From: a virus
Length of the DNA stretch: 25,702 nucleotides
Reading direction: 5' to 3' (one strand)
Virus record (IMG/VR): IMGVR_UViG_3300030106_003856
Location: 1-25,702 of that record
This document shows, in pieces, positions 808 to 17,222 of the stretch (positions are counted from its first letter, which is position 1; each line of letters opens with the position of its first letter). The translations under genes and the position numbers were made by a program. Under the pieces are notes generated by a model that saw only the letters and a list, made by a program, of their open reading frames with translations, was not told the DNA's origin and did not search any database.

Positions 808-809
808 AG

Positions 810-4490: not shown

Positions 4491-4496
4491 TACGCT

Positions 4497-5198: not shown

Positions 5199-5254
5199 AT
5201 GCCTCCACTTTCCTATTCTTCTTAATACTATTCTACTTAACACTAATACGATAA
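5192..5254 (+). CDS. Tiny membrane peptide, 20 aa
   Basis: MLDASTFLFFLILFYLTLIR, a single hydrophobic helix with one terminal Arg. It starts inside the last codons of the gp88-like gene (7-bp overlap) and its stop overlaps the next ATG (TAATG), so it bridges two genes in a coupled chain. It may be a real peptide or simply a translational bridge that carries ribosomes to the next gene. Confidence 0.4.
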   Translation: MLDASTFLFFLILFYLTLIR

Positions 5255-5412
5255 TGAAAACAAAAGGCACAAAACAGAAAATCCAAGAAGCTAAAACCAC
5301 AAAACAACTTACCAAGCTAGAGAAAAGGGCTAGTAAGTTTCAGCTTGCATCACCTCGAACTATGCGTAAGATAGAGAGAGCAATCAACGCCAAGAGAAAG
5401 GAGTTAAGCTAA
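5254..5412 (+). CDS. Basic hypothetical protein, 52 aa
   Basis: A lysine/arginine-rich helical protein (KTKGTKQKIQEAKTTKQLTK at the N-terminus, RKIERAINAKRKELS at the C-terminus) with a coiled-coil-like heptad pattern and very few acidic residues. ATG 5254 overlaps the stop of the upstream peptide and is preferred over upstream in-frame starts that lie inside the gp88-like gene. The stop overlaps the next ATG. It probably binds nucleic acid, judged by charge only. Confidence 0.55.
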   Translation: MKTKGTKQKIQEAKTTKQLTKLEKRASKFQLASPRTMRKIERAINAKRKELS

Positions 5413-5633
5413 TGCAAGAGTATAGCGTAGAAGTCCCTGAGATCCACCTTGCCACCTATGTTGTGGAAGCACACACACCAGCAGGAGCAATACAAGCTGT
5501 ATGGAATGGAGAGGGTGATCAAGTCAACGCCATGTTCTCGCATGGTATAGAGTCAAAATATGGGGACTGGATACCTCGCCCGCGTGTTGATGGCAAGGTG
5601 CAACCCTTTCCCCAGCAGGACGAGGACGAATAA
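5412..5633 (+). CDS. Small beta/alpha protein, 73 aa
   Basis: The first half follows the pattern strand - strand - helix (MQEYSVEVPEIHLATYVVEA then TPAGAIQAVWNG), which matches the layout of the small paralogs at 11549, 11890 and 12020 (aromatic-x-Val..., then V-x-A, then an Ala-rich helix). An AAGGAG precedes the ATG by 8 nt, one of the few clear ribosome-binding sites in this arm, and the start overlaps the upstream stop. C-terminus acidic. Function unknown; last gene of its unit. Confidence 0.55.
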   Translation: MQEYSVEVPEIHLATYVVEAHTPAGAIQAVWNGEGDQVNAMFSHGIESKYGDWIPRPRVDGKVQPFPQQDEDE

Positions 5634-5730: not shown

Positions 5731-5808
5731 GTAACTCCTTGATCCTCAAGGAGTTACGGCCACGGGGCGGGCCACGCCCCGTAACTCGTTGAGTCTTAAG
5801 GACTTACA
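5731..5808 (+). repeat. Triple-hairpin intergenic repeat, copy 5
   Basis: Perfect left arm GTAACTCCTTGA-TCC-TCAAGGAGTTAC (identical to copy 4), centre CGGGGCG-GGCCA-CGCCCCG (perfect 7-bp stem), right arm with three mismatches. It is the only copy with no promoter behind it and marks the end of the rightward genes. Confidence 0.85.
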
Positions 5809-5821
5809 CATGAAAAACTTC

Positions 5822-5860
5822 TAAAAGAAAAAAAGAAAGCCCGCTGTTACGCGAGCTTGC
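5822..5860 (-). terminator. Rho-independent terminator of the leftward operon
   Basis: On the - strand AAGCTCGC-GTAACA-GCGGGCTT (8-bp stem with one T-G wobble) followed by a long T-rich tail (TCTTTTTTTCTTTT). It lies about 40 nt past the SprT-like gene and separates the two convergent gene sets. On the + strand the stem has a C/A mismatch and a weak tail. Confidence 0.8.
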
Positions 5861-5917
5861 TTATTTAATTGGTTTGGTTTGACCTAGACGCTTATTATGT
5901 CAGGCTCTCACGACCTG
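5861..5917 (-). repeat. Bipartite repeat, two tandem copies
   Basis: The - strand consensus is CAGATCGA-N12/13-AAATAA. Copies here: 5861-5887 (CTAGGTCA-N13-AAATAA) and 5891-5917 (CAGGTCGT-N13-AATAAG). The second overlaps the last codons and stop of the SprT-like gene. Confidence 0.5.
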
Positions 5918-6397
5918 CAACTTTCCTTGTGTCTCTGCCTTCTTGCCGACAACCCATCTTTGCGACCAATCTCTGAACTTTGGTTTGCGGTAGTATTCCT
6001 TATAAACTTTTCCTGTTTCTTTGTTTATCAGTTTATACTTTCCCTTTAGCTGTTTAACATCTCCACCATGGATCTCAGGGGTGTAGCATCTTTCGGGTCT
6101 TGCGCCCACCTTGATACACATCCTCTTCCAGTGGGCATCGTGTCCGTGACCCATCCCCGCAAGGGCATGGGCGATCTCATGAAGAACGACATCTTTACTT
6201 TCTTCTAGTGAGTTGATGTTGGCGAGTTGCTTGCTGACGCTGATCTCCTGCTTGTGGTATCGGCACTGACCGTATCGGCGCACTGCTTTGGTATCCCATA
6301 CGAAACACCAGTCGCACCCATAGCTACCAGTTAATCCCCACTTGTTGAGTTGCTCTATAGCAAACTCTTTTATCTTATGTAGTTTGATTAAGTCCAT
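5900..6397 (-). CDS. SprT-like zinc metalloprotease, 165 aa
   Basis: The zincin signature HEIAHAL (His73, Glu74, His77) followed by GHGHDAHWKRMC (a third His at 86 or 89) is the arrangement of SprT/Spartan-type peptidases, HExxH plus a downstream His before a Trp. Length 165 aa is usual for SprT-like domains. A Cys pair (CDWC, 28-31) lies N-terminal. In cells Spartan-type proteases act on DNA-protein crosslinks; in phages the role is not known. The C-terminus is basic (YYRKPKFRDWSQRW). Last gene of a leftward run, followed by a terminator. Confidence 0.8.
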   Translation of the reverse strand: MDLIKLHKIKEFAIEQLNKWGLTGSYGCDWCFVWDTKAVRRYGQCRYHKQEISVSKQLANINSLEESKDVVLHEIAHALAGMGHGHDAHWKRMCIKVGARPERCYTPEIHGGDVKQLKGKYKLINKETGKVYKEYYRKPKFRDWSQRWVVGKKAETQGKLQVVRA

Positions 6398-6446
6398 CTC
6401 TTTATAGCCGCGATTAATAACAAAACAAATAAAACAAATTCAAACA

Positions 6447-6749
6447 TTAGCAGTTCTCAAGGTGCATTACATGTTCAAGGGCATACTGTCTGAATGCAAT
6501 AAGATTATGCATGTGTTTAAGTCTCTCCTCCGTTGCACGTTTGAATGCAGACGGTGCTTCGTTGGCTGGGTCTTGCACATAGTAATCTCTGCCATGAAGA
6601 CCAACTTTGGAATCCCGAACTGCTTGGGATACTATGGCATAAGCCTCATCAAGAGCATCATTTAGTTTCTTTGCATCCTTGAGTAGCGTCTCTTGTGGAG
6701 TGCCATTCAGGTGAACGGTGGGTAGTGGGTAGTTTACGTTGACTATCAT
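6447..6749 (-). CDS. Conserved phage hypothetical protein (LNGT...HGRDYY family), 100 aa
   Basis: The pattern VHLNGTPQETLLKDAKKLND near the N-terminus, then LHGRDYYVQ in the middle and a helical R..HLH-type end, matches a family I know from many phages of proteobacteria and others; its function is unknown. Probably an all-helical bundle with a central loop carrying the GRDYY motif. The start at 6749 lies 6 nt after a possible -10 box and next to a palindromic operator candidate. 50 nt separate it from the SprT-like gene. Confidence 0.65.
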   Translation of the reverse strand: MIVNVNYPLPTVHLNGTPQETLLKDAKKLNDALDEAYAIVSQAVRDSKVGLHGRDYYVQDPANEAPSAFKRATEERLKHMHNLIAFRQYALEHVMHLENC

Positions 6750-6755
6750 ACGGTA

Positions 6756-6784
6756 AACCTACTACCACCTTCGGTGGTAGTCAA
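6756..6784 (-). promoter_or_regulatory. Promoter candidate with operator palindrome in the spacer
   Basis: - strand TTGACT (6784-6779), 17-nt spacer, TAGGTT (6761-6756), 6 nt to the ATG at 6749. The -10 is poor, but the geometry equals that of the leaderless promoters. A 9-bp perfect inverted repeat, ACTACCACC-TTC-GGTGGTAGT on the + strand (6761-6781), fills the spacer, as an operator would. Confidence 0.45.
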
Positions 6785-6934
6785 CATTTAAATTCATTAA
6801 AAATCCCGATAGAAATCCCTGAAGTTCATATAGATCATGATGCTGACCCCAAGTATATACAGGGGAATACAACACAAAACAAAACTGGTGGTTAATAGTA
6901 TACCTACGGTGCGGAATGTCACAGGCTAATACGC

Positions 6935-7211
6935 TTATTTAGTTTATGTCGCTCGACCTGCGCCTTTATTTAAGAAGGTAGGCTAGATCTGGGGTTAAGC
7001 ACCATATAGCAAACAAAAACAAAAGCCACCATACAACAGTGATCCAAGTTGTTTCGCCCCATTGTCTCATCGCATTATTTAGTTTGTTTTATTAGATCCG
7101 CGAATATTACGAAATGTTTCGCACGATCTGCCCCATATGTTTATTTACACGATCTCGGTCGATCCAGCAACTTTATTTATTTAGATTATTTCAGTTGATC
7201 TGCACTGATCC
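6935..7211 (-). repeat. Cluster of six to seven bipartite repeats
   Basis: Copies of CAGATCGA-N12/13-AAATAA read on the - strand: 6935-6960 (spacer 12), 6966-6991 (12), 7075-7101 (13), 7104-7130 (13, AAATAA replaced by TAATAT), 7141-7166 (12), 7177-7202 (12), plus an overlapping one at 7185-7211. Pitch is about 30-37 nt within subclusters. Some copies contain extra GATC sites. Confidence 0.55.
6966..7070 (-). CDS. Possible small membrane peptide, 34 aa
   Basis: The ORF starts MRQWGETTWITVVWW and continues as a Trp/Leu/Phe-rich helix (residues about 9-25), ending in LAYLLK. Its stop codon is the AAATAA of one bipartite repeat and its start follows another, as seen at the ends of larger genes. 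No Shine-Dalgarno sequence. It could be a chance ORF in a gene-poor region, though the hydrophobic composition is coherent. Confidence 0.35.
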   Translation of the reverse strand: MRQWGETTWITVVWWLLFLFAIWCLTPDLAYLLK

Positions 7212-7213
7212 AG

Positions 7214-7339
7214 CTAACCGTCTGACCAATAATCGTTGATTTCTTCGTCGTTGTGTGAAGTTTTCTCTCCATCAAAACAGGCTTTATAAGTAAGGTAAAG
7301 GAACCAAAACCAAAACCAAAAGGGGTAAAACCAATCCAT
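7214..7339 (-). CDS. Possible small aromatic membrane peptide, 41 aa
   Basis: The N-terminal half is extremely aromatic (MDWFYPFWFWFWFLYLTYKA), compatible with a membrane-associated helix, and the C-terminal half is polar and acidic (GEKTSHNDEEINDYWSDG). The stop lies just before a bipartite repeat. No ribosome-binding site. Probably a genuine amphipathic peptide gene because the polar/apolar halves are sharply divided, but no homolog is recognised. Confidence 0.4.
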   Translation of the reverse strand: MDWFYPFWFWFWFLYLTYKACFDGEKTSHNDEEINDYWSDG

Positions 7340-7489
7340 AATTATCGTAATCTAATTTAAATTATATTTAATTAATTAAAATTAGCAAGGAGTAATCGTC
7401 ATTTCCTCAACCTAATTCCAACAGTGTTTGCTTCTCTATTCTCTCTATACTCTCCCCTATATGTATTTGTCTCTATCCCTTGTAGATGT
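7340..7489. other. AT-rich tract followed by pyrimidine-rich tract, no gene
   Basis: 7348-7385 is almost pure A/T (TTTAATTAATTAAAATTAG-like), a possible unwinding element. 7428-7482 is a pyrimidine-rich run (TTCTCTATTCTCTCTATACTC). No ORF of note. Confidence 0.4.
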
Positions 7490-7579
7490 AGGGTATTGGG
7501 GCTAACGGGACGTAGGGGGCAACGTGAGGGCATTGAGGGGGTAATACGGGGTATTATGGGGCGCATTGGGGCGTAATGG
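7490..7579 (+). repeat. Phased G-tract array (origin or G-quadruplex candidate)
   Basis: Nine runs of 3-5 G in ~85 nt. The last five units are 10 nt apart (pattern GGGG + six mixed bases such as TAATAC, TATTAT, CGCATT), close to one helical turn. It lies beside the AT-rich tract in the longest gene-poor segment of the window. Confidence 0.5.
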
Positions 7580-7620
7580 TTTATTTATACAAACGTAAAA
7601 ACAAAAAGCTTGTTTTATAA

Positions 7621-7833
7621 TTACAAACAACTCTTTGGAACTATCACATTAGACAGTCCGATATTCTCATTCCACCCTCCTTCGAGAACCAAGTCACCCT
7701 TATTCAAACAAATAAGATCACCTTGATTGTTTTCTTTTATTACCTCTAGCTTCATTCCTTCTCTCAGTAAACACACTTTCTTGCTTCCTTGAAGATCGTA
7801 GAAGGCAGTATGCTTGATGGTTATTTCTCTCAC
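7621..7833 (-). CDS. Hypothetical protein, 70 aa
   Basis: Not recognised. A compact, mostly beta protein (MREITIKHTAFYDLQGSKKV, EGMKLEVIKENNQGDLICLN), possibly a small barrel. The start is a GTG whose last bases overlap the TGA of the upstream gene (GTGA, 4 bp), so coupling is likely. It is the last gene before the 870-bp gene-poor segment. Only a weak AT-only hairpin (AAACAA/TTGTTT) follows it. Confidence 0.55.
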   Translation of the reverse strand: MREITIKHTAFYDLQGSKKVCLLREGMKLEVIKENNQGDLICLNKGDLVLEGGWNENIGLSNVIVPKSCL

Positions 7834-8327
7834 AGTGCCAACTCGGTTTGATTTGCATCTTGCTCTATTTGTCCACTGGTATTAAACACTAATCCATCTG
7901 TAATCAAATCATCAAAACACATATCCCGAATTGATAACTCATGTCCATGCCCAACTAAATCAGACAGTCGCACCTTGTGAAGAAAGGGGAGTCCATTGTC
8001 AACACTCTTGTCCCAATGTCTCTGAATCTTATTAAGCAAATACTCTCTAATCTTTTCTACGGTTTCGTGAGCAGTTTTCTTCTGTTCTCCCCTATCATAA
8101 AAAGAAGAAGCTATTATTCTCTCCCACAAATCCTCGTAAGGCATGAACTCATATGCTTCACAGGCTGACTTCTCTACTGCCACTCTCCATGTCTTAGTCT
8201 TATGCTCGAAGTCCTCTAGGGTTACCTCATGGTCTTCCATGATATCCCACAGACAGTCGCACAGGTATGCACCCGCACCCATATTAGCAAAATTAATTTC
8301 TTTGGTTAGCTTTTCTTCCTTTGTCAT
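7830..8327 (-). CDS. Hypothetical acidic helical protein, 165 aa
   Basis: Mostly charged alpha helices (MTKEEKLTKEINFANMGAGA at the N-terminus, then DIMEDHEVTLEDFEHKTKTW). Two internal Cys (CDC at 23-25) and a segment LRE/REYLLNKIQRHWDK in the second half. No motif or family recognised. Five bases separate it from the upstream gene. No Shine-Dalgarno sequence. Confidence 0.55.
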   Translation of the reverse strand: MTKEEKLTKEINFANMGAGAYLCDCLWDIMEDHEVTLEDFEHKTKTWRVAVEKSACEAYEFMPYEDLWERIIASSFYDRGEQKKTAHETVEKIREYLLNKIQRHWDKSVDNGLPFLHKVRLSDLVGHGHELSIRDMCFDDLITDGLVFNTSGQIEQDANQTELAL

Positions 8328-8332
8328 ATTTA

Positions 8333-8548
8333 TTATTGCTTCTGTTTAGAATCTTGATACTCTTTTTCTATTCCTTCTGTTGTGAAGAAGTCGCCCCACT
8401 CGTTTGGTATATCCAAACCCATCTCCGTAGCGTGAACCTGAGTACCGTCCTCATGACCCACCCAAAGCTTCAAGTGTCCATCACAATCCCCATGCACAGT
8501 GTGTTGTTGACCATTAAGGTGAACAATCCATTTTTTTTCTTGCTTCAT
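8333..8548 (-). CDS. Hypothetical protein, 71 aa
   Basis: A small His- and Gly-rich protein: a strand pair (EKKWIVHLNGQQHTVHGD), then CDGHLKLWVGHEDGTQVHA, and an acidic/helical end (EGIEKEYQDSKQKQ). The ATG at 8548 is preferred to the in-frame TTG at 8557; it lies 2 nt after the upstream stop. Multiple histidines could suggest metal binding, but no clear motif is present. Confidence 0.5.
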   Translation of the reverse strand: MKQEKKWIVHLNGQQHTVHGDCDGHLKLWVGHEDGTQVHATEMGLDIPNEWGDFFTTEGIEKEYQDSKQKQ

Positions 8549-8550
8549 TA

Positions 8551-8715
8551 CTACCAAGTATTGTGTTTAATGTATGCCCAACGAGTGGGAATGATTGCTG
8601 AAATGAATAACCCCATACTAATGAAGTTGAATCCGAACATAACTATACCACCCAAACCAAGCAGTGTCAAGCCATATCCTATAATTAAACAGTCCTCTTT
8701 ACTGAGCTTTTTCAT
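8551..8715 (-). CDS. Small two-helix membrane protein, 54 aa
   Basis: After a charged start (MKKLSKED), two hydrophobic segments at about residues 10-27 and 30-43 and a basic end (RWAYIKHNTW). The ATG at 8715 has a good ribosome-binding site (AAGGAG, 9 nt away), which decides against the longer in-frame reading. It overlaps the last codons of the 32-aa ORF upstream. Function unknown. Confidence 0.5.
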   Translation of the reverse strand: MKKLSKEDCLIIGYGLTLLGLGGIVMFGFNFISMGLFISAIIPTRWAYIKHNTW

Positions 8716-8797
8716 TGCGCCATTCTCCTTGGGAATATACCTTGATGCCCCTCCATTGCTGGACATATTCACTTGCTGATAATAATTTATCTGTCAT
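8699..8797 (-). CDS. Small hypothetical protein, 32 aa
   Basis: MTDKLLSASEYVQQWRGIKV and a polar, basic remainder. The start overlaps the stop of the oxygenase-like gene (TAATG) and the 3' end overlaps the next gene start by 17 bp, so it sits in a coupled chain. Its length and position suggest a real but uncharacterised peptide; it also supplies the ribosome-binding site of the next gene. Confidence 0.4.
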   Translation of the reverse strand: MTDKLLSASEYVQQWRGIKVYSQGEWRNEKAQ

Positions 8798-9288
8798 TAC
8801 TTTCTGTTTGTTTTGATGTTCATACCAATGATTGTTTTTTCTTCTGCTGAAGGCAAGCAGTAATGTATTAAGTCAGGTTGCCAATACAAAATGTCTCCTT
8901 TTTTTACTGCAACATTCTCTTGTGTGTCGGTAAGTGGGTTGTAAAAATAAGTTCCATCTCCATCGTTTAGGTAAAGACAGGAGGCAACTGATGTCCCACG
9001 GTGCGTGTGTGGGGCGTGAAAACCACTATTTCTATCATATGTTTGAATCCAAGACTCTTGGAACTCTTCCTCATCTTTAATCGCATGATCTAAAACTTCT
9101 TTTATGAGTGGTTCATTATGCACTTGGCAATTTGTAAAGTATGTTGTTGTGTGGAATGATGGTTCATCCCGTTGTCCAACGTCCAAACAAAAAGCTTTAA
9201 CTTTTTCTATCCACTCATCACTTAGATTAAAGTGACCCACTCCCAAGTAAACAGGAGGAAACAAAATTTGGTTTCTTAGGGTAATCAT
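8797..9288 (-). CDS. Putative 2-oxoglutarate/Fe(II)-dependent oxygenase, 163 aa
   Basis: Resembles the 2OG-Fe(II) oxygenase group with the TIGR02466/PF13759 layout: ESWIQTYDRNSGFHAPHTHR (residues 78-97) gives the first metal-ligand pair (His94/His96, or His91), SVASCLYLNDGDGTYFYNP is the typical core strand region, and GDILYWQPDLIHYCLP carries the distal His142. A basic residue (Lys151) follows where the 2OG carboxylate ligand usually sits. Such enzymes are common in marine phages; substrates are unknown. Coupled to both neighbours by TAATG overlaps, including the HhH glycosylase-like gene upstream. Confidence 0.7.
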   Translation of the reverse strand: MITLRNQILFPPVYLGVGHFNLSDEWIEKVKAFCLDVGQRDEPSFHTTTYFTNCQVHNEPLIKEVLDHAIKDEEEFQESWIQTYDRNSGFHAPHTHRGTSVASCLYLNDGDGTYFYNPLTDTQENVAVKKGDILYWQPDLIHYCLPSAEEKTIIGMNIKTNRK

Positions 9289-9917
9289 TACTCTTCGTAA
9301 TTCAACCTTGCTCTCCTGAGATTAAGGTCATCATCTAACCGACCACTTTGTTTTGTCCAAATAAGCAAGTCGATTTGTGCATTGCTGAGATGTGGGTAAT
9401 GCAGTCTTGACAAAATCCTGTATCTGTTCTCTAGTTCAGCATAAACCTTGAGGTTGGTTGGGGTAGACTTCGGTGCATCTTCTACACCGTGATCTCTCAT
9501 CCATGACAGAATATGTGTATCAAGCACAGCATAATCACACTTATCTCTCGTATGCAACAAAAAGAATCGTGCGGTTTTATTGCCGACACCGTAGATGTCC
9601 AGCAAATCTTGCAGAGAACAATTCCTCAGATCAAGATCAAGGGACTGCATAATTCCTCTTGTTAGTCTAGTGTATTGCCCGACCCTATTTGCGACAAGCA
9701 TATTGTGAACTCCTGTCTGACCAATGGATTTAAAATAATTAAAAATACCCCCATCAGTGCCTTTATCTGCCGTATCTAACAATTTCTTTAAGCATTTTGA
9801 TGCCCAATCGCTATTTTTTCCTGCGACGAACATACAAAACAACCAAAAAGCTTGCAGTTGGTCAGTGTCCCGATTAAAATCAGTTATGTTTTTAGGGTCT
9901 ATTTGTGTTTTTAACAT
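9288..9917 (-). CDS. HhH-GPD DNA glycosylase/lyase-like protein (endonuclease III-like), 209 aa
   Basis: The helix-hairpin-helix LLDIYGVGNKTARFFLL (105-121) and the following VLDTHIL (131-137) match the catalytic heart of endonuclease III-type glycosylases. Lys114 and Asp133 align with the catalytic Lys and Asp of bifunctional glycosylase/AP lyases. The C-terminal four-cysteine iron-sulfur motif of endonuclease III is absent, and overall similarity elsewhere is low. It probably excises damaged or modified bases; whether it protects phage DNA or attacks host DNA cannot be told. Coupled to the oxygenase-like gene by a one-base overlap. Confidence 0.7.
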   Translation of the reverse strand: MLKTQIDPKNITDFNRDTDQLQAFWLFCMFVAGKNSDWASKCLKKLLDTADKGTDGGIFNYFKSIGQTGVHNMLVANRVGQYTRLTRGIMQSLDLDLRNCSLQDLLDIYGVGNKTARFFLLHTRDKCDYAVLDTHILSWMRDHGVEDAPKSTPTNLKVYAELENRYRILSRLHYPHLSNAQIDLLIWTKQSGRLDDDLNLRRARLNYEE

Positions 9918-10060
9918 TATAATTCAGATTTGTTTATTACTTCTCGTAAATCTTCCAGTTGCTCTTCTGTTATATCAAGAGTTTTTTCCACCCATACAGG
10001 ATGCTCTTTGATAACATAATCTGCAATTTTAATTATTGCTCTTAGATCGTCCCTATCCAT
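9917..10060 (-). CDS. Hypothetical acidic protein, 47 aa
   Basis: MDRDDLRAIIKIADYVIKEH and a second helix EEQLEDLREVINKSEL: a small acidic helical hairpin. It is coupled on both sides (8-bp overlap with the upstream gene, TAATG with the glycosylase-like gene). The tight chain with the glycosylase may indicate a partner or inhibitor, which is inference from position only. Confidence 0.5.
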   Translation of the reverse strand: MDRDDLRAIIKIADYVIKEHPVWVEKTLDITEEQLEDLREVINKSEL

Positions 10061-10361
10061 TGTCGTTAATTAAAATTTCGATAGCCTCCTTGGATTGCTT
10101 GAGCGTCACGACATCACCTGCTTGAGCATACTGCTTGAGCTTGGTAATTGAAACCCTCTTGTCTCCCCTCGTCTTTGCCTTATAGAATGTTACTTTTCCT
10201 ATGGTTCCGTCAGGATACCTGCATGATACCATGTTTTTATCTCCTGCTTCATGCTCAGAGTAATCAAAAGAAAATTCTTTGGCTAACTCGCAGACTGATT
10301 TGTTTGCGTCGATGATGCTTTTGTTGAGCATTGTATCTGTTAAATTGATTGTTGCTTTCAT
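10053..10361 (-). CDS. Hypothetical protein, 102 aa
   Basis: Not recognised. The C-terminal half is basic and beta-rich (TIGKVTFYKAKTRGDKRVSI) followed by a helix-turn pattern (KLKQYAQAGDVVTLKQSKEA) that could be a small nucleic-acid-binding domain. Only one base separates it from the stop of the upstream gene. No ribosome-binding site. Confidence 0.55.
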   Translation of the reverse strand: MKATINLTDTMLNKSIIDANKSVCELAKEFSFDYSEHEAGDKNMVSCRYPDGTIGKVTFYKAKTRGDKRVSITKLKQYAQAGDVVTLKQSKEAIEILINDNG

Positions 10362-10362
10362 G

Positions 10363-10614
10363 TTACTTGGTTTCTTGAACGACTTTTTTCTCTCCCGTTA
10401 CTACATCGGTTTCCTGCTGATTCTTAATGATCTCTTCCAACTGAGCAGTTATGCCTTCCCAGCACTCTTCGCTTTCAAGGTAACGGCAAGCTTGAACCCA
10501 CTCGACCTCATTGGAAATGACGTTTGGAAAATCTTCTTTTGTCCACCACGGCATAATAATGTTGCGCTTCGGATCAAGTTCTTTTAATGCTGTTATTAAT
10601 ACTTCTACTGTCAT
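10363..10614 (-). CDS. Hypothetical protein, 83 aa
   Basis: N-terminal helix typical of small phage proteins that begin MTVEVLITALKELDP, then a Trp-rich strand region (IIMPWWTKEDFPNV) and an acidic helical end. The opening motif (L..L..LDP...I) occurs in several unrelated phage ORFs of unknown function. Twenty bases separate it from the gene upstream. Confidence 0.55.
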   Translation of the reverse strand: MTVEVLITALKELDPKRNIIMPWWTKEDFPNVISNEVEWVQACRYLESEECWEGITAQLEEIIKNQQETDVVTGEKKVVQETK

Positions 10615-10634
10615 GGTTCTATTTTAATTGATTT

Positions 10635-10808
10635 TTAATTAGTTTCAAGTGTTTTTATTTCAATTCCCATCTCATCATAAGGTTTACAAGTTGTTCCTAT
10701 AACCTCATTCTTACTCCACGCATCAACCACTACTCCTTCGTCGTCCAGTTTAACGTGGATTTGAATACCGTCCTCAAGGTGCAAGTATATATATCTATCT
10801 TCTGTCAT
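10635..10808 (-). CDS. Hypothetical protein, 57 aa
   Basis: A short beta-rich protein: MTEDRYIYLHLEDGIQIHVK, then LDDEGVVVDAWSKNEVIGTT and a final helix/strand (CKPYDEMGIEIKTLETN). The pattern of a strand, a DDEGVVVD turn and an EVI strand suggests a small beta sheet. Three bases follow the stop of the upstream zinc-ribbon-like gene. Function unknown. Confidence 0.5.
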   Translation of the reverse strand: MTEDRYIYLHLEDGIQIHVKLDDEGVVVDAWSKNEVIGTTCKPYDEMGIEIKTLETN

Positions 10809-10811
10809 GGT

Positions 10812-10976
10812 CTAACTATCGTTCATGTCTAACAGGATGTCAACCTCATTTTGTCTTGAATCGGGTTGGTTGAAGCTTAGACTATTGCACTTAACACAAT
10901 ACTTCTTTTTTGCTTTTTCGTGAATGTAATCTTCCTCACACTCACAATCCCAATAGTTTTCGTTAGTCTCAATCAT
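10812..10976 (-). CDS. Small zinc-ribbon-like protein, 54 aa
   Basis: Two Cys pairs in the spacing of a zinc ribbon: WDCECEEDYIH (Cys11, Cys13) and YCVKC (Cys27, Cys30), followed by a conserved-looking NQPDSRQNEV segment. The combination NYWDCECE...YIH...C..C...QPDSR..EV is one I associate with a recurrent phage protein of unknown function. It overlaps the upstream gene by 8 bp. The Cys-x-Cys first knuckle is slightly unusual compared with Cys-x2-Cys. Confidence 0.6.
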   Translation of the reverse strand: MIETNENYWDCECEEDYIHEKAKKKYCVKCNSLSFNQPDSRQNEVDILLDMNDS

Positions 10977-11505
10977 AATAGTTTTCTTTTTTGATTGCTA
11001 TTAATCTGTTTGCATCGTGTTCCACCTCGTCCCACACATTAACAGAACTGTTTTCTTCCTTCTTGGCTAACTCCCGATACTTAACTAAAAGCTTCTCGTA
11101 TTGCTTTAGGGCATCTTTATAATTTTGTTCAAGCGAATGATGATCATAAACAAATCCCTCGACATACTCTTCTTCTATAGGTTGCTCATCTAAATCAACA
11201 GTATCTTTCCTTACGTCTAGGATGAGTTCAGTAGTATCTTGATACCGCAACATCACTTCGTATTCTACTCTTTCGTATGTTTCTTTGTGTTTACCTATAG
11301 CCTTTTGGTGCAAGGTTTCTCTTTGTTCTTCTGTTGCTTGTGGCACTACAGGAACACACGTTTTATCTTGTTCATTGTCTTCAATCTCTTTTATTGCCTC
11401 TTCGCATCTGTCTAGTATGTTTCGGATATGAGTGTCAATGACCTCATCGGGCATCCCATTGACAACTCCTTTTAATGCGGATAATGCGGTATCTAATTTG
11501 CTCAT
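10969..11505 (-). CDS. Hypothetical coiled-coil protein, 178 aa
   Basis: Long amphipathic helices at both ends (RNILDRCEEAIKEIEDNEQD near residue 30; LEQNYKDALKQYEKLLVKYR near 124) flank an acidic central region (DVRKDTVDLDEQPIEEEYVE). No family recognised; it may be a structural or scaffolding-type coiled coil. It is the first gene of a long leftward unit and its start is fixed by a leaderless promoter at 11512-11540. Confidence 0.6.
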   Translation of the reverse strand: MSKLDTALSALKGVVNGMPDEVIDTHIRNILDRCEEAIKEIEDNEQDKTCVPVVPQATEEQRETLHQKAIGKHKETYERVEYEVMLRYQDTTELILDVRKDTVDLDEQPIEEEYVEGFVYDHHSLEQNYKDALKQYEKLLVKYRELAKKEENSSVNVWDEVEHDANRLIAIKKENYYD

Positions 11506-11511
11506 GCTGGT

Positions 11512-11540
11512 AATTTAAATTAATTTAAATTCAAAGTCAA
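11512..11540 (-). promoter_or_regulatory. Promoter, predicted leaderless
   Basis: - strand TTGACT (11540-11535), 17-nt spacer, TAAATT (11517-11512), then 6 nt (ACCAGC) to the ATG at 11505. Nearly the same sequence precedes the gene at 12199, as if duplicated. Confidence 0.65.
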
Positions 11541-11548
11541 GGGGTTTT

Positions 11549-11731
11549 TTATTCATCTTCTTCAGCTACGCACTTGATAACATCAAAATCTTTCGCTCGG
11601 TCATAACCAATGTCGAACTCAAATTGTTCTCCTGCTTTTCTCATTGCTTCAGCTTCATTCTTGGCATCTACCATAAATGTATAGCTAAGAACATCTATAG
11701 GTGCAAATATTACTTCGTATTCTTTACTCAT
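11549..11731 (-). CDS. Small beta-strand/helix protein, paralog 3, 60 aa
   Basis: MSKEYEVIFAPIDVLSYTF, then MVDAKNEAEAMRKAGEQ: strand, strand with a V-x-A turn, then an Ala/Glu helix. This is the same layout as the proteins encoded at 11890 and 12020 and at 5412. ATG 11731 overlaps the upstream stop by 8 bp and is chosen over the longer in-frame reading, whose first 45 codons lie over the upstream gene. Function unknown. Confidence 0.55.
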   Translation of the reverse strand: MSKEYEVIFAPIDVLSYTFMVDAKNEAEAMRKAGEQFEFDIGYDRAKDFDVIKCVAEEDE

Positions 11732-11897
11732 CTTCTTCTTCGTTAAATTGTTTGCCCCATACATTGAATACGTTGAAGCACAGGGTTGTGTTATTGTCGT
11801 GGTATCCTTCTGTCTCAAATTCGTAATACCAGTTGCCTCCAACTTCTTTCTCAAGGAATTCCTCAAGCTTCGCTAAAAAATCTTCTGTTTTATTCAT
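11724..11897 (-). CDS. Hypothetical acidic protein, 57 aa
   Basis: An N-terminal helix (MNKTEDFLAKLEEFLEKEVG), a Trp/Tyr-rich strand (GNWYYEFETEGYHDN) and a second strand (CFNVFNVWG), ending in a run of acidic residues (FNEEEDE). It is embedded in a run of four overlapping small genes and is overlapped by 8 bp at each end. It does not share the paralog pattern of its neighbours. Not recognised. Confidence 0.5.
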   Translation of the reverse strand: MNKTEDFLAKLEEFLEKEVGGNWYYEFETEGYHDNNTTLCFNVFNVWGKQFNEEEDE

Positions 11898-12030
11898 TTA
11901 TCTTTTCAAAATTAAATGCCGTCACATCTTCATTGTTGTGAACATCAAAACAATATTTTATCATCTCATCGTAAGCTTGCTCTTCAGTCTCAGCTTCGAT
12001 TACGTCTTCAAAAGTAACTTTAAACTTCAT
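11890..12030 (-). CDS. Small beta-strand/helix protein, paralog 2, 46 aa
   Basis: MKFKVTFEDVIEAETEEQAY, then DEMIKYCFDVHN: strand, V-x-A-E-T-x-E-x-A turn, helix. The shortest member of the cluster. It overlaps both neighbours (11 bp upstream, 8 bp downstream). A 46-aa size suggests it works as a dimer or as part of a complex if it is functional. Confidence 0.5.
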   Translation of the reverse strand: MKFKVTFEDVIEAETEEQAYDEMIKYCFDVHNNEDVTAFNFEKINE

Positions 12031-12199
12031 CTTTTATCTCGTCGGTGTTGATTATCTCGTCAGAGTAGCTTATGTTAAAATCACAGTCATTTAATATCGC
12101 ATCGTTGCAATAATCTCTAACTTTGTTTTGTGCTTCTTCCTCTGAGTCTGCTTCGACTTCGAAGGTATTATATATTGTGATTCCTATTTGGTATCTCAT
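12020..12199 (-). CDS. Small beta-strand/helix protein, paralog 1, 59 aa
   Basis: MRYQIGITIYNTFEVEADSE, then EEAQNKVRDYCNDAIL: the F-x-V-x-A-x-S-E-E-E-A turn aligns with the corresponding segments of paralogs 2 and 3. C-terminus acidic. First gene of the cluster; its start is fixed by a leaderless promoter (12206-12234). Confidence 0.55.
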   Translation of the reverse strand: MRYQIGITIYNTFEVEADSEEEAQNKVRDYCNDAILNDCDFNISYSDEIINTDEIKDEV

Positions 12200-12205
12200 G
12201 CTGGT

Positions 12206-12234
12206 AATTTAAATCAATTTTAAATCGGGGTCAA
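12206..12234 (-). promoter_or_regulatory. Promoter, predicted leaderless
   Basis: - strand TTGACC (12234-12229), 17-nt spacer, TAAATT (12211-12206), 6 nt (ACCAGC) to the ATG at 12199. The block from the spacer through the ATGAG start is almost identical to that at 11505. Confidence 0.65.
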
Positions 12235-12237
12235 GAG

Positions 12238-12552
12238 TTATTTAATTAACTTCTTGTACTCTTTCTTAAAAATAGGAAACAAAAGATTGTCTACTGCTCT
12301 CACTAATGCTTCCTCGGTGTTCTCATCATCTAATATGTAACTCAAGCCACTCACTGAGAGGGAGGCATGATGAGCTTCATGCATGATGGTATCGAATATC
12401 TCTTCGTCACTCAAACCTTTACGGATGCAAATGATCTTTTTGTCAAAGTCCATCTCACCGAAGTCTCGCATCTCTTTAAAAACAATTTTAAATTCAATGC
12501 CTCCTATATTTAGTTTGGTGGGAGGGGAATATTTTTTTTTCTTCGCTACCAT
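12238..12552 (-). CDS. Small zincin metallopeptidase-like protein, 104 aa
   Basis: DTIMHEAHHASL (HExxH, about residues 55-66) followed 20-odd residues later by ENTEEALVR, whose Glu can be the third ligand, and a C-terminal hydrophobic helix (AVDNLLFPIFKKEY). This layout fits the minimal ImmA/IrrE- or phage-type zincins. It overlaps the RuvB-like gene by one base (TAATG). The target is unknown; ImmA-type proteins cleave repressors, so a regulatory role is conceivable. Confidence 0.65.
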   Translation of the reverse strand: MVAKKKKYSPPTKLNIGGIEFKIVFKEMRDFGEMDFDKKIICIRKGLSDEEIFDTIMHEAHHASLSVSGLSYILDDENTEEALVRAVDNLLFPIFKKEYKKLIK

Positions 12553-13472
12553 TATCCAATCTTCTCTAATGCCTTAGTTCCCTCGCCAGTGATTTCGCGC
12601 TTGCCATCAATACGCATAAAGCCTTGCTTGAGCAGGAATATCTCTGCATCCTTTTGGATAGCAGTCCTTGACATTCCCGTCACAGCAGACAGCATTTGCA
12701 GAGTGCAAGCACCTCGCTCCTTGAGAATACGCATGACCTGTAGCTCGGTATTGTTGATACCGAAAGGCATGATGCCCACTAGACCACACAATTCTTTCCA
12801 ATCAGCTTTATTAAACGTTGACTTATTGTGAACTTCGGCGTATGCACTAATTTCTAATGCACGTTTAATTGCGGATCGAGCATTGCCTCGAACAGTCTCG
12901 GCTATCTCGTCCATGATTCCATCCTCGAAGCTGATCCAATCAATCTTCTTCTTGATGATTCCTGCCAACTCACTTGATTTGTATGGTTGGAAATCAACCA
13001 CAGTCAAACGGTCGCGAAACGGAGGAAACAATTTATCCAGTTCGGTTGTCGCAAACAAGAATGTCTGACGCTCAAACTCAAACAGGAAGCTTGATTCACC
13101 AAATTCAAATCGTTTGGTCTTCGCACCCTCAATGTTAAAGATAGTCAGAAAAGACATAACTAAATCTTTCGGTAAGGCATGAGCCTCATCAAACAATATA
13201 GTAACATCCTTGTCCAAGATTGCAGGAATAAAGACCTGCTCAAAGAACTGCTCGGCATTACGAATGGTCGAACAGTTGACTTCGATCATTGGCTTGCCAA
13301 GAGACTTCGCAAAACACTTTGCGAATTCTGTTTTACCCAATCCCTTTGCCCCATTGAACATGAGAAAAGGAATTGTGCCAGTTGCATTCTTTGCCTCGGA
13401 GTAAAACTCCAGGCGCGTCTTGAGAGAATCTTGTCCAATAAGACCCTCGAACATATCGGGTTTGGTCGTCAT
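12552..13472 (-). CDS. RuvB-like AAA+ ATPase with C-terminal winged helix, 306 aa
   Basis: The AAA+ core is complete: FEGLIGQDSLKTRL N-terminal motif, Walker A GAKGLGKT (41-48), Walker B ILFDEAH (92-98), sensor 1 ATTE (141-144), arginine finger FRDR (152-155) and sensor 2 GNARSAIKRAL (196-206). A winged-helix domain follows (LKERGACTLQMLSAVTGMSR). RuvB is the closest match; typical RuvB is slightly longer (about 330-350 aa). No RuvA or RuvC is nearby, so it may drive branch migration alone, serve as a replication loader or do another remodelling job. Overlaps both neighbours by one base. Confidence 0.8.
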   Translation of the reverse strand: MTTKPDMFEGLIGQDSLKTRLEFYSEAKNATGTIPFLMFNGAKGLGKTEFAKCFAKSLGKPMIEVNCSTIRNAEQFFEQVFIPAILDKDVTILFDEAHALPKDLVMSFLTIFNIEGAKTKRFEFGESSFLFEFERQTFLFATTELDKLFPPFRDRLTVVDFQPYKSSELAGIIKKKIDWISFEDGIMDEIAETVRGNARSAIKRALEISAYAEVHNKSTFNKADWKELCGLVGIMPFGINNTELQVMRILKERGACTLQMLSAVTGMSRTAIQKDAEIFLLKQGFMRIDGKREITGEGTKALEKIG

Positions 13473-13708
13473 TAGCTGAATGAGTTAACAGAGAATTGAA
13501 TCTTCTCTTCGGGTTCTTCCGTGACCTCACGGATAGGTGTGCTTTTAGGAGTTGCTGGCTGAATGGTTAAACCAATCTCTTCCAACCACTTCTTCGACAC
13601 GACGATGGTCGCATTGGAACCTACTTGCTGCACTAGATCATTGATGTTGATTCTAGTGAACGATGTAGACCCTCTTGGGCGACCCCTCTTCTTAGATGTC
13701 TCGTTCAT
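13472..13708 (-). CDS. AT-hook-containing DNA-binding protein, 78 aa
   Basis: The N-terminus has an AT-hook core (KKRGRPRGS, residues 6-14), which inserts into the minor groove of AT-rich DNA. The rest (FTRININDLVQQVG, then VVSKKWLEEIGL) could be a short helical domain, followed by a Pro/Glu-rich linker. ATG 13708, not the longer reading from 13744, is chosen because the -35 and -10 boxes occupy 13716-13744. First gene of a three-gene operon with the RuvB-like ATPase and zincin; probably recruits them to AT-rich DNA. Confidence 0.7.
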   Translation of the reverse strand: MNETSKKRGRPRGSTSFTRININDLVQQVGSNATIVVSKKWLEEIGLTIQPATPKSTPIREVTEEPEEKIQFSVNSFS

Positions 13709-13715
13709 ATGGTCA

Positions 13716-13744
13716 ATTATAAACCATATAAAATGGGGGCGCAA
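13716..13744 (-). promoter_or_regulatory. Promoter, predicted leaderless
   Basis: - strand TTGCGC (13744-13739), 17-nt spacer, perfect TATAAT (13721-13716), 7 nt to the ATG at 13708. Confidence 0.75.
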
Positions 13745-13784
13745 GCGTTTTTTTTACTTAAATTGATTTTTTTTTCGCAACCAC

Positions 13785-14114
13785 CTATGCTGGTGGATCA
13801 CCACTAGGTGGTGGAGGTGGATTATTAATCCAGTTCCTCAGTGGAACAACCGCATTAGTGATAGCGTCCATCGCACCTGAGACTTCAGGCACTTCAGCAA
13901 TAGCTTTCCATAGATCGTTGGTTTCAATATATTCTATACCACCTTCCAACCCCATGTTTAGTTCCTTGTTGTTAGCGTCATAAGGTAGACATTTAATATT
14001 TAGTCGTCCCTCTGTCTCAGTTATTTCGATATTGATATTATTTAACCATATCGAATCATAAGTTTTCTCAGGTTCTGGTGGAGTAATGTAAGGTTCGTCC
14101 CTCGGAATAGCCAT
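13785..14114 (-). CDS. Hypothetical protein with proline-rich tail, 109 aa
   Basis: N-terminal polar region (MAIPRDEPYITPPEPEKTYD), a beta segment (WLNNINIEITETEGRLNIKC), an acidic middle (DLWKAIAEVPEVSGAMDAI) and a C-terminal polyproline stretch (NPPPPPSGDPP). Tails of this kind occur on virion-associated phage proteins, but no family is recognised. Upstream lies an 6+6 inverted repeat TACACT-N5-AGTGTA (14129-14145). Confidence 0.55.
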   Translation of the reverse strand: MAIPRDEPYITPPEPEKTYDSIWLNNINIEITETEGRLNIKCLPYDANNKELNMGLEGGIEYIETNDLWKAIAEVPEVSGAMDAITNAVVPLRNWINNPPPPPSGDPPA

Positions 14115-14128
14115 AACTTTATTTTTAT

Positions 14129-14145
14129 TACACTACTTGAGTGTA
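14129..14145. promoter_or_regulatory. Inverted repeat between divergent starts
   Basis: TACACT-ACTTG-AGTGTA, in the 40-nt gap between the leftward gene start (14114) and the rightward ORF (14155). Position and symmetry fit an operator. A related GTGTAA motif lies upstream of the starts at 15665, 20951, 21797 and 24036. Confidence 0.4.
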
Positions 14146-14154
14146 AAAAAGAAT

Positions 14155-14484
14155 ATGAACCTTATCGTTGTGTCTCACCTAACTACAAACGAAGGATTAT
14201 ATTTTAGGTATTTAACTATGACAGTTAAAAGCTATTTGGGAATGGATGTGCTGGTCGAAGCTCAGAAAGAACAAATAGATTACTATTATAAGCTACTCAA
14301 AAGAAAAGGATTGTACGATTACGTTTCAGAAATCCTGCCGCAAGATACAAAAGAAGAAGGAGTAAGATTAGATACGGAATTAAATTATCCCCTCACCGTA
14401 AAGACTAAAAACATTTCTGTTACTAACGTCAACACTCTAATCATGCAAATTAAATCGTTAGGTTATATTAAAAGAACAATTTAA
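14155..14484 (+). CDS. Orphan rightward hypothetical protein, 109 aa
   Basis: The only + strand gene in the right arm, AT-rich. Starts MNLIVVSHLTTNEGLYFRYL, with many Tyr/Lys residues (IDYYYKLLKRKGLYDYV) and a C-terminal beta/alpha part (LNYPLTVKTKNISV, TLIMQIKSLGYIK). ATG 14155 is preferred to the upstream TTG 14137 because the latter lies within the inverted repeat. No family recognised. The orientation suggests an acquired 'moron'-type gene with its own control. Confidence 0.55.
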   Translation: MNLIVVSHLTTNEGLYFRYLTMTVKSYLGMDVLVEAQKEQIDYYYKLLKRKGLYDYVSEILPQDTKEEGVRLDTELNYPLTVKTKNISVTNVNTLIMQIKSLGYIKRTI

Positions 14485-14509
14485 AAAGTTTTTCTCCACG
14501 CGCACACGC

Positions 14510-14576
14510 TTATTTGGCAAAAAATCGTTCGATCTGGGGCTTTTTACGCTTATTTGGGAAAATCGCAGTCGATCTA
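14510..14576 (-). repeat. Bipartite repeat, two tandem copies
   Basis: CAGATCGA-N13-AAATAA (14536-14510) and TAGATCGA-N13-AAATAA (14576-14550) on the - strand, 40 nt apart. The second begins with the TAG stop codon of the secreted-protein gene, which differs from the CAG of the consensus by one base. Confidence 0.65.
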
Positions 14577-15665
14577 GGGGTTTTCAACAGCCACCCAACC
14601 CGCAACCACTCTACCCAAACCGTAACGCAAGCTCAAGATGCTTGCCCATTGATCTAAAATAACTCCCGCTTCTACTGTGCGGCTATCAAGTTGCCACCAC
14701 CCTTTATTATAATCATCCCAAATTTCAGTTGTATAATTAATTTGAGAATCATCGGATTGCCAAATGACATTAAAGTATGGGTCACCAAATTCATCTAAAC
14801 TAAGATAAGTGTAAACCTGTGGTTTGGGCGGTATACTGGGGGTTGTCTTTTTAGGGTATGGAAAACCTTGGGGTGGATGTAAGACAACCTTTCCTCCAGC
14901 GCCTCTTGTTTGTATGATCAATGTATTAGGTATGAACTCTTCGCCAGCGTCTGAGACATCGCTGCCCAACTTCTTCCAGCCCTCGGTCATAAAGATATTG
15001 CCTTCGGAATAATAATATTGTTCGTAGTATGGATCAACACCCTCTGAATCACCATCTCTATATAGCCAAACAATGTCGCCCGTCATAGCATCACCCTTTT
15101 TAAATCCTTTGGACAGGTGTATCTTGGAATCATTCAGTGAAATTCTTGCAGGATAACCCCTATTTAAAAAGTTAAATCCATGCTGAACCCAATAAGTCAT
15201 GGGTTCCTGCCTGACATACCCACCAAAAGCCATATACCACTCAAAATCTTTTTTTGATTGTATAAAGAAAGCTTTATTTTGTGGGATAACATAATCCCCG
15301 ATATCATGATTGCCCCCACCTATATACCTCCAGCCCTCAGTTATACCAAAAGCTTCTATATTTGTGGCATTGTAGTAGATCTGCAACCAGATTCCAGACT
15401 CTTCCTTGACCCAAATTACGTCAGATTGGTTGGGCGTGGCACTAACCTTTAGATTAATTTCATTCTTTTCCCCAAAGATGTCAGAAATTGACCGATCACT
15501 TGTTCCATCAGCATTTTCAGCAACGTTAATGGCAACAGGAGTAAAACTATTTGGTTCAATTAACTCGTAATGGAAACCAAAGTAATCAGACGTAGCGTTC
15601 TGAGCCTCCACACAAGAGAGAAACGCTGATGTGAAGACCCCAAGTAAAGTAACTAGGAGTTTCAT
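14574..15665 (-). CDS. Secreted TIGR02597-like protein, 363 aa
   Basis: A signal peptide (MKLLVTLLGVFTSAFLSCVEA) precedes an extracellular beta-rich protein with repeated IWV/IWLQIYYN/TEGWRYIGGG motifs, glycine-rich G.FNFLNRGYP and IVWLYRDGD..YYEQYYYSEGN segments. This resembles TIGR02597, a family I associate with Verrucomicrobiota surface proteins. A separate C-terminal module (QSDDSQINYTTEIWDDYN, WWQLDSR) follows a Pro-rich linker. In a phage it may be a host-derived surface or virion adhesin. Its last codon is the start of a bipartite repeat. Confidence 0.6.
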   Translation of the reverse strand: MKLLVTLLGVFTSAFLSCVEAQNATSDYFGFHYELIEPNSFTPVAINVAENADGTSDRSISDIFGEKNEINLKVSATPNQSDVIWVKEESGIWLQIYYNATNIEAFGITEGWRYIGGGNHDIGDYVIPQNKAFFIQSKKDFEWYMAFGGYVRQEPMTYWVQHGFNFLNRGYPARISLNDSKIHLSKGFKKGDAMTGDIVWLYRDGDSEGVDPYYEQYYYSEGNIFMTEGWKKLGSDVSDAGEEFIPNTLIIQTRGAGGKVVLHPPQGFPYPKKTTPSIPPKPQVYTYLSLDEFGDPYFNVIWQSDDSQINYTTEIWDDYNKGWWQLDSRTVEAGVILDQWASILSLRYGLGRVVAGWVAVENP

Positions 15666-15691
15666 ATGTATATTTACACATGTACACTCTC

Positions 15692-15768
15692 TTATTTGAG
15701 AAAAACGCGCTTGATCTGCGACTTTTTACCGATTTGTTAATGTTCGATTAACTTTCGCAGTCGATCTG
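15692..15768 (-). repeat. Bipartite repeat, one full and one half copy
   Basis: Full copy CAGATCAA-N13-AAATAA (15718-15692). Half copy CAGATCGA (15768-15761) inside the last codons of the HNH gene, followed after 11 nt by its own TAA rather than AAATAA. Confidence 0.55.
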
Positions 15769-16275
15769 GGAGTCTGCCCTAAACTCACCAAAATATTTTT
15801 TCTCTGCTTCTATACGAGCTTGTATAGCATCTTCTTTTTCGTTGAAAATCCCTAAGTATTTGTAGTTACCACGAAGCTGCACTGTGGCTATCCATTTTTG
15901 CCTGCCTCGCCTCCAATGCACCCCAGTAAAACCGCTCGTATTATTTCGCCTTAAACCCTTATTAAAATTATTTTCTTGACAAGTCGCTAATCTAAGATTT
16001 TTAATTCTATCATCTGCTTTATTGCCATTTATGTGGTCTACCTGCTTTTCTAAGGGGTCTACGCCATGATACATATAATAAGCTATTCTATGAGAAAGGT
16101 AAATACTCCTTTTCAATTTTATCATTCTATAACCTTCAGAGTTTAAACATCCAGCTTGTTGACCAATTTTAATGCGGTAGGCTGGCCTTTTCTTCCAAAT
16201 AAATACTCCTGTATCTGAATTATAATCTAAATATTCTTTTAGTTCTTCTAGTGGTGGAAGTGGGTTGTATTTCAT
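15748..16275 (-). CDS. HNH-AP2 homing-type endonuclease, 175 aa
   Basis: A phage HNH endonuclease with the usual order: an N-terminal strand region, YLSHRIAYYMYHG (His62), the HNH core VDHINGNKADDRIKNLR (79-95) and a C-terminal AP2 DNA-binding domain (NTSGFTGVHWRRGRQKW through KYFGEF, about 114-165). All catalytic positions are present. Such free-standing enzymes cut intronless target genes and move themselves. A half copy of the bipartite repeat forms its last codons (SQIDCES). The ATG overlaps the stop of the upstream gene by one base. Confidence 0.85.
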   Translation of the reverse strand: MKYNPLPPLEELKEYLDYNSDTGVFIWKKRPAYRIKIGQQAGCLNSEGYRMIKLKRSIYLSHRIAYYMYHGVDPLEKQVDHINGNKADDRIKNLRLATCQENNFNKGLRRNNTSGFTGVHWRRGRQKWIATVQLRGNYKYLGIFNEKEDAIQARIEAEKKYFGEFRADSQIDCES

Positions 16276-16736
16276 TATTTAAATTTCTTTAATTGATGTT
16301 GCTCTACGCAATAGCCCTCCCCATGACCCAAATCTTTAATATTTTCGGGGCGCATAAATTCATTTTTCATTATATACCCCTTGATATCTACCTCGGAATC
16401 GCTCACCACACACAAAACATACATATCCACATCTGGATTTATTTTTTTTGTAGCTAGAAGTCTACCACTTTTATATGTGGTGGATTTAATATCATAAGCA
16501 TATCCTTTTAATTTTCCATCCGCACTTCCACTGCGGGGCGTTAAACCAAGATCTGGAAAGGTATTAAATTGTTTAGAAAATGCGTATTCAGCCTTCATAC
16601 CCATAACATCGGCTTCGCTACCATCTTGTGTGCCAATTTTAGCATCTGTTACGCCAGCACTTCGCGCAATCAGAGACCTCATTCTACCCAACTGTTCGCA
16701 AATCAATATTTCGTCGGGTTCTAGTCTTACAATCAT
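16275..16736 (-). CDS. Putative PD-(D/E)XK nuclease-fold protein, 153 aa
   Basis: The arrangement MKAEYAFSKQFN (Glu50), then GYAYDIKSTTYKSGRLL (Asp82, Lys84) fits the PD-(D/E)XK fold: helix-Glu, strand, D-x-K, then a strand with Gly-Arg-Leu-Leu. Length is typical of small phage nucleases. The N-terminal part (LEPDEILICEQLGRMRSLIA) is helical. Possible roles include resolvase or restriction-like cleavage; I cannot choose. It is followed immediately by the HNH gene and ends in LKKFK with an AAATAA stop. Confidence 0.55.
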   Translation of the reverse strand: MIVRLEPDEILICEQLGRMRSLIARSAGVTDAKIGTQDGSEADVMGMKAEYAFSKQFNTFPDLGLTPRSGSADGKLKGYAYDIKSTTYKSGRLLATKKINPDVDMYVLCVVSDSEVDIKGYIMKNEFMRPENIKDLGHGEGYCVEQHQLKKFK

Positions 16737-16739
16737 TGT

Positions 16740-16766
16740 TTATTTGGCAATTTCTTTTTCGATCTG
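16740..16766 (-). repeat. Bipartite repeat overlapping a gene end
   Basis: CAGATCGA-N13-AAATAA on the - strand (16766-16740); it encodes the C-terminal QIEKEIAK and stop of the upstream gene, 3 nt before the next ATG. Confidence 0.55.
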
Positions 16767-17222
16767 GAACCAATTCGGCGCCTCTCTCTTAGTCCACTTG
16801 GCGAAGTAAGCTTTCTCGCCATTGTAATAGGAGCGATAAGCTGTAACAGAACAATCGTTTTTGTATTCCTCTGGCATTGCTTGTGCAAAAGGGGTGAGTC
16901 CCTTGGATGGTATATTTAGCTTATGGTAATTAGATCCGCACCAACCGATAGCATTAAGAGACTTATGCACCTTGCCGTAGCGACGAGTATACTCTTGACA
17001 CATAGCGTATGCGTGATTGAGCAACCACTCGTAGTTCTCGACTGATTCTCTAGCCCACTTAGTGCAAGGGTGATTGTAGAATGCTCTCTTGTATGGGGCG
17101 TCCCCATTAGGGAACACAGCGCAAAGCATCTGCGCTGACTCAAGAATCATCTTGACTACATGTTTATCACACAATTGTTGTGCTGCGATTTTGGGGTCAT
17201 TGTCTACTGCAAATATATTCAT
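16740..17222 (-). CDS. Conserved phage protein, DKHVVKM-signature family, 160 aa
   Basis: The N-terminus MNIFAVDNDPKIAAQQLCDK is followed by HVVKMILESAQMLCAVF, YKRAFYNHPCTKWARESVEN, and EYTRRYGKVHKS: a signature I know from phage proteins that are often annotated as pyrimidine-dimer glycosylase/endonuclease V-like. I do not consider that activity established, because it does not look like T4 endonuclease V. Conserved His, Cys and Arg residues suggest an enzyme. Its 3' end carries a bipartite repeat. Overlaps its neighbours only marginally. Confidence 0.65.
   Translation of the reverse strand: MNIFAVDNDPKIAAQQLCDKHVVKMILESAQMLCAVFPNGDAPYKRAFYNHPCTKWARESVENYEWLLNHAYAMCQEYTRRYGKVHKSLNAIGWCGSNYHKLNIPSKGLTPFAQAMPEEYKNDCSVTAYRSYYNGEKAYFAKWTKREAPNWFQIEKEIAK

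Follow-up and report, generated by a model that had tools for sequence, protein, structure and literature searches.

Introduction

How whole genes are swapped precisely at their borders in phages is a long-standing question, and dedicated phage boundary sequences, proposed long ago, have to our knowledge rarely been found. Among cassette arrays, a complete integron has a tyrosine integron integrase in cis, whereas CALINs lack the integron integrase. In phages, integrons and CALINs present arrays of ORFs running in one direction, each ending at a repeat (PMC9892861). Short boundary homology was earlier proposed for phage mosaicism, the conserved boundary sequences of mosaic phages being short direct repeats at the joints where homology breaks (PMC3029335), and the PeSL cassettes of T4-type phages are repeated intergenic elements tied to gene exchange in heavily shuffled regions (as cited in PMC4503421). 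The stoperators of mycobacteriophages are asymmetric sites between genes and point the same way as transcription (PMC3029335, PMC9283540).

The window analysed here is a viral fragment of 25.7 kb to which no named phage is closely related at the DNA level, and it carries a bipartite repeat that invites comparison with all of these. The copies lie on one strand and are confined to two loci, genes run flush into them, their letters are constrained as DNA, and homology between relatives breaks at them. We read the repeat, with a probability of about 0.6, as an element that marks gene boundaries at the DNA level in an accessory-gene array whose cassettes are joined at the copies. One sequence, in many copies across a phage group, bound to its place and adjoining tRNA genes as well as ORFs, would then define the joints, and the question of precise swapping becomes testable by a two-site assay and by long reads of natural populations.

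Results and discussion

The repeat consists of box 1, a spacer of 12 or 13 nt and the box AAATAA, about 27 nt in all. A two-box scan of the window (CAGATCGA plus AAATAA, gap 12 or 13, at most two mismatches) locates 12 copies, all of them on the - strand and none on the +, against a mean of 0.75 and a maximum of 3 in second-order shuffles; at one mismatch or fewer there are nine copies, against 0.00 in shuffles. Every - strand position listed in the initial annotation holds a copy (three of them weak, the one at 5891 corrected to 5892-5917), its half copy is real, and its claim of a strict 12- or 13-nt gap is borne out, the other gaps tried (9-11, 14 and 15) giving only 0-1 matches each; the shuffles likewise uphold enrichment over base composition. 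The repeat is real, specific, one-stranded and limited to gaps 12 and 13. Spacers vary, and differ between coding and terminal copies, while both boxes and their spacing stay fixed. No palindrome is evident (palindromicity 0.43, 0.46 when shuffled), a stricter repeat pattern has zero matches in the bacterial genomes scanned, and named phages give no convincing match. Copies are listed in Table 1; of the 14 letters that make up the two boxes, 0-2 are mismatched in a good copy and 3 in a weak one. Two extra good matches (19118-19143 and 19168-19194) lie within the coding sequence 18939-19310, away from a gene end, and the boundary reading leaves both without explanation.

Table 1. Repeat copies and neighbouring genes in the window (genes called with our own simple caller, family names from sequence only)
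Feature	Position	Strand	Context
Weak copy, 3 mismatches	5861-5886	-	convergent gene junction; intrinsic terminator 5837-5858 comes next
Weak copy (CAGGTCGT..TAATAA), 3 mismatches	5892-5917	-	gives end (QVVRA-stop) of SprT-like gene 5900-6397
Copy, gap 12, tandem array	6935-6960	-	
Copy, gap 12, tandem array	6966-6991	-	
Copy, gap 12, tandem array	7075-7100	-	
Weak copy (TAATAT), 3 mismatches, tandem array	7104-7130	-	
Copy, gap 12, tandem array	7141-7166	-	
Copy, gap 12, tandem array	7177-7202	-	small ORF 7214-7339 stops 11 nt before it
Anchor gene F5, 109 aa, conserved	14155-14484	+	points toward array; Rossmann/HAD-like model
Constant terminal copy, gap 13	14510-14536	-	25 nt from stop of convergent gene 14155-14484
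Copy, gap 13	14550-14576	-	gene 14574-15665 stops at the TAG of this copy (TAGATCGA)
F44 gene, cassette-like, secreted-type, no family	14574-15665	-	
Copy, gap 13	15692-15718	-	between HNH gene and gene 14574-15665
HNH-AP2 gene F6	15748-16275	-	
Half copy, box 1 only	15761-15768	-	end of HNH gene 15748-16275
phrog_18407 gene, cassette-like	16275-16736	-	four different upstream contexts in relatives
Degenerate copy CAACATCAATTAAAGAAATTTAAATAA	16275-16301	-	end of gene 16275-16736 (QHQLKKFK-stop)
F7 gene, Pyr_excise, cassette-like	16740-17222	-	
Copy, gap 13, exact	16740-16766	-	last 9 codons (QIEKEIAK-stop) of Pyr_excise-like gene 16740-17222
F2 gene, DUF1599-type	18550-18930	-	upstream border of variable interval

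Relatives were gathered from metagenomic contigs by an exact-pattern scan and by protein scans for three genes, and twelve relative records were examined in full. Those found carry the same repeat, on one strand in each record. The phage group counts as unclassified, since even the best-ranked named phages have a DNA polymerase and terminase at most 30% identical to those of G001, a 104 kb relative. Strong matches (profile score >15) in the 84-104 kb relatives occur only in two neighbouring regions. Region c is the hypervariable interval from F2 to the oppositely pointing F5, and its gene content differs among relatives: Pyr_excise-type genes, HNH-AP2 and other nuclease-like genes, glycosyltransferases, a sulfotransferase-like gene, cupin, phrog_18407, a secreted protein and tRNAs, several of these names being readings of the sequence and not database matches. 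Region b/a begins after the tiny ORF 7214-7339 and ends behind the SprT-like gene. Many genes of region c run into a copy at their end, and all 28 anchor-gene regions examined have a terminal copy next to F5; distant homologues of F5 (L192, L193) have no repeat adjoining. The proteins of 17695-18549 and 19774-20670 are paralogous and related to 1111-1555 aa proteins in G003 and G011, a family perhaps of tail-fibre or adhesin type.

The window also holds a second repeated element of about 98 nt, with five copies in the rightward operon (704-801, 2071-2168, 3025-3122, 4057-4154 and 5732-5829). Its GC-rich core is flanked by two palindromic halves, each of the form TAACTC..TGA..TCA..GAGTTA. This operon (1-5633) has a low coding density, its small ORFs being separated by the element, and the copies at 704 and 3025 overlap the stop of the preceding gene. 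The element, also present in G001, G002, G003, G004 and G009, is possibly a second gene-boundary element.

At least five unrelated gene families, plus tRNA-Leu, run flush into a copy. An upstream stop lies within -15 to +30 nt of the copy start in 60 of 84 distinct gap-13 copies of the relatives, compared with 3.9% of random same-strand positions that have a stop within -15 to +27, in agreement with the non-random placement at gene ends proposed from the window. Genes overlapping a gap-13 copy enter it in a single frame, CAG ATC GAN, and four stops are used within it: a TAG replacing CAG, the TAA in CAGATCTAA, the TGA in GAATGA, and the final AAATAA. The Pyr_excise protein ends in WF/QIE.. at a copy and in WFHA or WFNDSPKNKV away from one, the HNH protein in GEFR../SQIDCES or, away from a copy, in GEFRRRN, and the F9 nuclease-like, glycosyltransferase-like and F44 families likewise have copy-type ends only when adjoining a copy. 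As the same families have other C-termini away from copies, the tail belongs to the place and not to the gene. Better versions of the degenerate copy at 16275 occur in relatives L167-L176, with the tail QSELKSFK-stop. F2 is copy-ended in most relatives, the window F2 having no terminal copy; in long F2 forms (L120, L122, L123 and L031) AAATAA has become AAATTA and the protein extends past the copy, and in L011 and L035 the long form ends in a second copy (GLHY/SQIEQENxK-stop).

These tails are constrained at the DNA level. Across 16 distinct F2 sequences the motif codons TCC-CAG-ATC-GAA never vary synonymously, while nearly all conserved upstream codons do, which indicates that the constraint acts on DNA. 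The motif Gln is replaced by Lys in some sequences, and the codons used are minority ones (CAG 25% for Gln, ATC 19% for Ile, TCC 7% for Ser). The initial annotation had suspected a DNA-level sequence imposed on gene ends, and both the synonymously invariant codons and the tail shared by unrelated genes agree with it.

The next gene or tRNA often begins 0-3 nt past AAATAA, or its start codon overlaps AAATAA, and this bears on whether the repeat could be a promoter (or a PeSL-like promoter/terminator) moving with each gene, box 1 being an activator site or -35 and AAATAA the -10. T4 middle promoters combine an activator box with a -10, a geometry that the repeat resembles, and occurrence on a single strand would also suit a promoter. 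However, a sigma-70-type promoter starts transcription about 7 nt past its -10 and ahead of the gene, and at the many copies with a start codon or tRNA 5' end 0-3 nt past AAATAA the transcript would be without its start, terminal copies face a convergent gene, and a sigma-70-type search gave no sigma-70-like match on any copy. The promoter suggested earlier from the spacing is therefore highly improbable.

Breaks of homology fall at the copies. In 60-nt blocks, identity between the window and G012 stays at 92-100% as far as the F7 copy; it ends exactly at the AAATAA of this copy, past which the two sequences are unrelated, at the random level. On the far side of the segment replaced relative to G012, the window keeps the half copy at 15761 where G012 has a full one. 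The window and a 96%-identical relative part exactly at AAATAA. The phrog_18407 gene has various upstream neighbours: F7 precedes it in the window and F2 in several contigs, whereas L175 has another gene there and L174 a terminator region. In the pairs compared, identity rises at AAATAA from about 0.3 to about 0.8. Of the 1914 BLAST homology termini over all regions, 494 are no more than 10 nt away from a copy, where random positions give 92 (maximum 115); the initial annotation's module-junction alternative, with copies at synteny breakpoints, is thereby strengthened. Within the same 3.5 kb, gene ends with a copy gather more breaks than those without (5.4 against 3.4, p=0.001). Both sets of counts share ancestry and hence are not independent. 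As the variable part of the genome coincides with the motif loci, a certain association with breaks would be expected for any function of the motif. Misjoined assemblies are an improbable source of the joints, since identity at the repeat extends over just 8-14 nt at a stretch and independent contigs show the same joints.

Module joints with direct repeats, and breaks at the copies, could also arise if general recombination used the copies passively as tiny homologies, with no dedicated protein. Yet the two boxes and their spacing are fixed though the spacers vary, and every region retains the tandem copies and the constant terminal one, which would be prone to loss if homology alone were at work; we regard a passive role as quite unlikely. 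The repeat might otherwise be a target of the HNH-AP2 homing-type nuclease of the array, as had also been suggested, given that HNH-AP2 genes cluster in the region c interval and that nuclease genes of phages have been described at the borders of exchanged segments (PMC10448857). The enzyme is not required, however, since relatives without the HNH-AP2 family, some of them fragmentary contigs, retain the repeat, and genomes that do carry the gene hold many intact targets, all of which leaves a nuclease target a most doubtful explanation.

The tandem array of region b lies in what the initial annotation took for an origin-like region. In relatives it is a tRNA and accessory locus holding tRNA-Leu/Met/Arg genes, which points away from that label, and the cumulative GC-skew extremes of G001-G003 fall away from the array, giving no positive evidence of a replication origin. 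The 3' end of tRNA-Leu(TAA) falls in the first two letters (C-A) of a copy in six loci, followed in some relatives by tRNA-Met and tRNA-Arg, and in other relatives tRNA-Leu is found in region c, where it starts 0 nt past a copy in L188 and 6 nt past one in L135; in the window ARAGORN finds zero tRNAs. The genes that separate array b from the convergent junction are missing from G001 and G003, which looks as though they, too, were units. Copies abutting the 3' ends of both tRNAs and ORFs would also be expected of an RNA processing signal, a possibility raised before. Their RNA folding is no better than that of shuffles (z about 0, no hairpin), no Rfam family matches the repeat, tRNAs with encoded CCA are present without an abutting copy, and the homology breaks would be left unexplained, so that a processing role appears very improbable.

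A pure cassette account does not explain the gene-free part of the tandem gap-12 array, and here the copies may have a second role, as roadblock or in replication. As an explanation of the repeat at large, a roadblock or terminator site (stoperator-like) would have a phage protein on an asymmetric site at operon ends halting RNA polymerase or a replication fork from one side only, the recombination breaks being a by-product. Copies invariably share the strand of the genes that run into them, and they stand in tandem at convergent operon ends, both of which fit. Transcripts must nonetheless cross the internal copies, where the next start overlaps or abuts the repeat (AAATAATG), so that these copies cannot be strong terminators; other convergent junctions of G001 (15900/15906, 31566/31569 and 69394/69401) have no copy; and no repressor or integrase was identified. 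A general roadblock function thus seems unlikely.

In the gene-boundary reading, units, either ORFs or tRNA genes, would sit between successive direct copies, each starting a few nt after AAATAA and entering the next copy with its 3' end, which often takes its last codons and stop from it. A protein may recognise both boxes, as these and their spacing are kept while the spacers differ, and recombination at or between copies would insert, delete and swap units. This may be site-specific recombination, or general recombination or end-joining of the phage; our slight preference is for general recombination at a conserved, putatively protein-bound boundary. Units in excised or circular form were not observed. 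Site-specific recombination would make the array a phage cassette system, integron-like but unrelated, with a bipartite, non-palindromic recombination site of 12/13-nt spacing at which a phage or host recombinase would insert ORF and tRNA units one after another between tandem landing sites, and we put this forward as a tentative and rather improbable candidate. No member of the tyrosine or serine recombinase families (PF00589 included) was found in 13 records, which are possibly incomplete. F5 was considered as a recombinase; its confident model (pLDDT 92) is that of a small Rossmann/HAD-like protein and not of a recombinase, with weak matches only, none at E<=0.001.

Comparison with known systems

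The array resembles the integrons and CALINs of phages (PMC9892861) in its one-way units with a 3' repeat, though not every unit has a copy. It differs in that no attC R'' RYYYAAC / R' GTTRRRY pair spans a copy, the copies form no palindrome, no integrase gene was found and tRNA genes are among the units. With mycobacteriophage stoperators (PMC3029335, PMC9283540) it shares asymmetric gene-end sites co-oriented with transcription, but here the site is bipartite, of ~27 nt, with no repressor known, and is associated with breaks in gene content. Only one stem-loop terminator (5837-5858) occurs at the copies, after one copy, and there is no terminator enrichment. The repeat also differs from the PeSLs, as cited in PMC4503421, in having no stem-loop or recognisable promoter and in lying flush with start codons, while sharing with them the repeated intergenic occurrence in shuffled regions of gene exchange. 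As in the conserved boundary sequences of mosaic phages (PMC3029335), short direct repeats mark the joints where homology breaks, but here one bipartite element of fixed spacing recurs at many joints, supplies stops and borders tRNA genes. Although the molecular hallmarks of PeSLs and integron arrays that were looked for are absent, the repeat may by analogy work in the manner of conserved boundary sequences, PeSLs and integron arrays.
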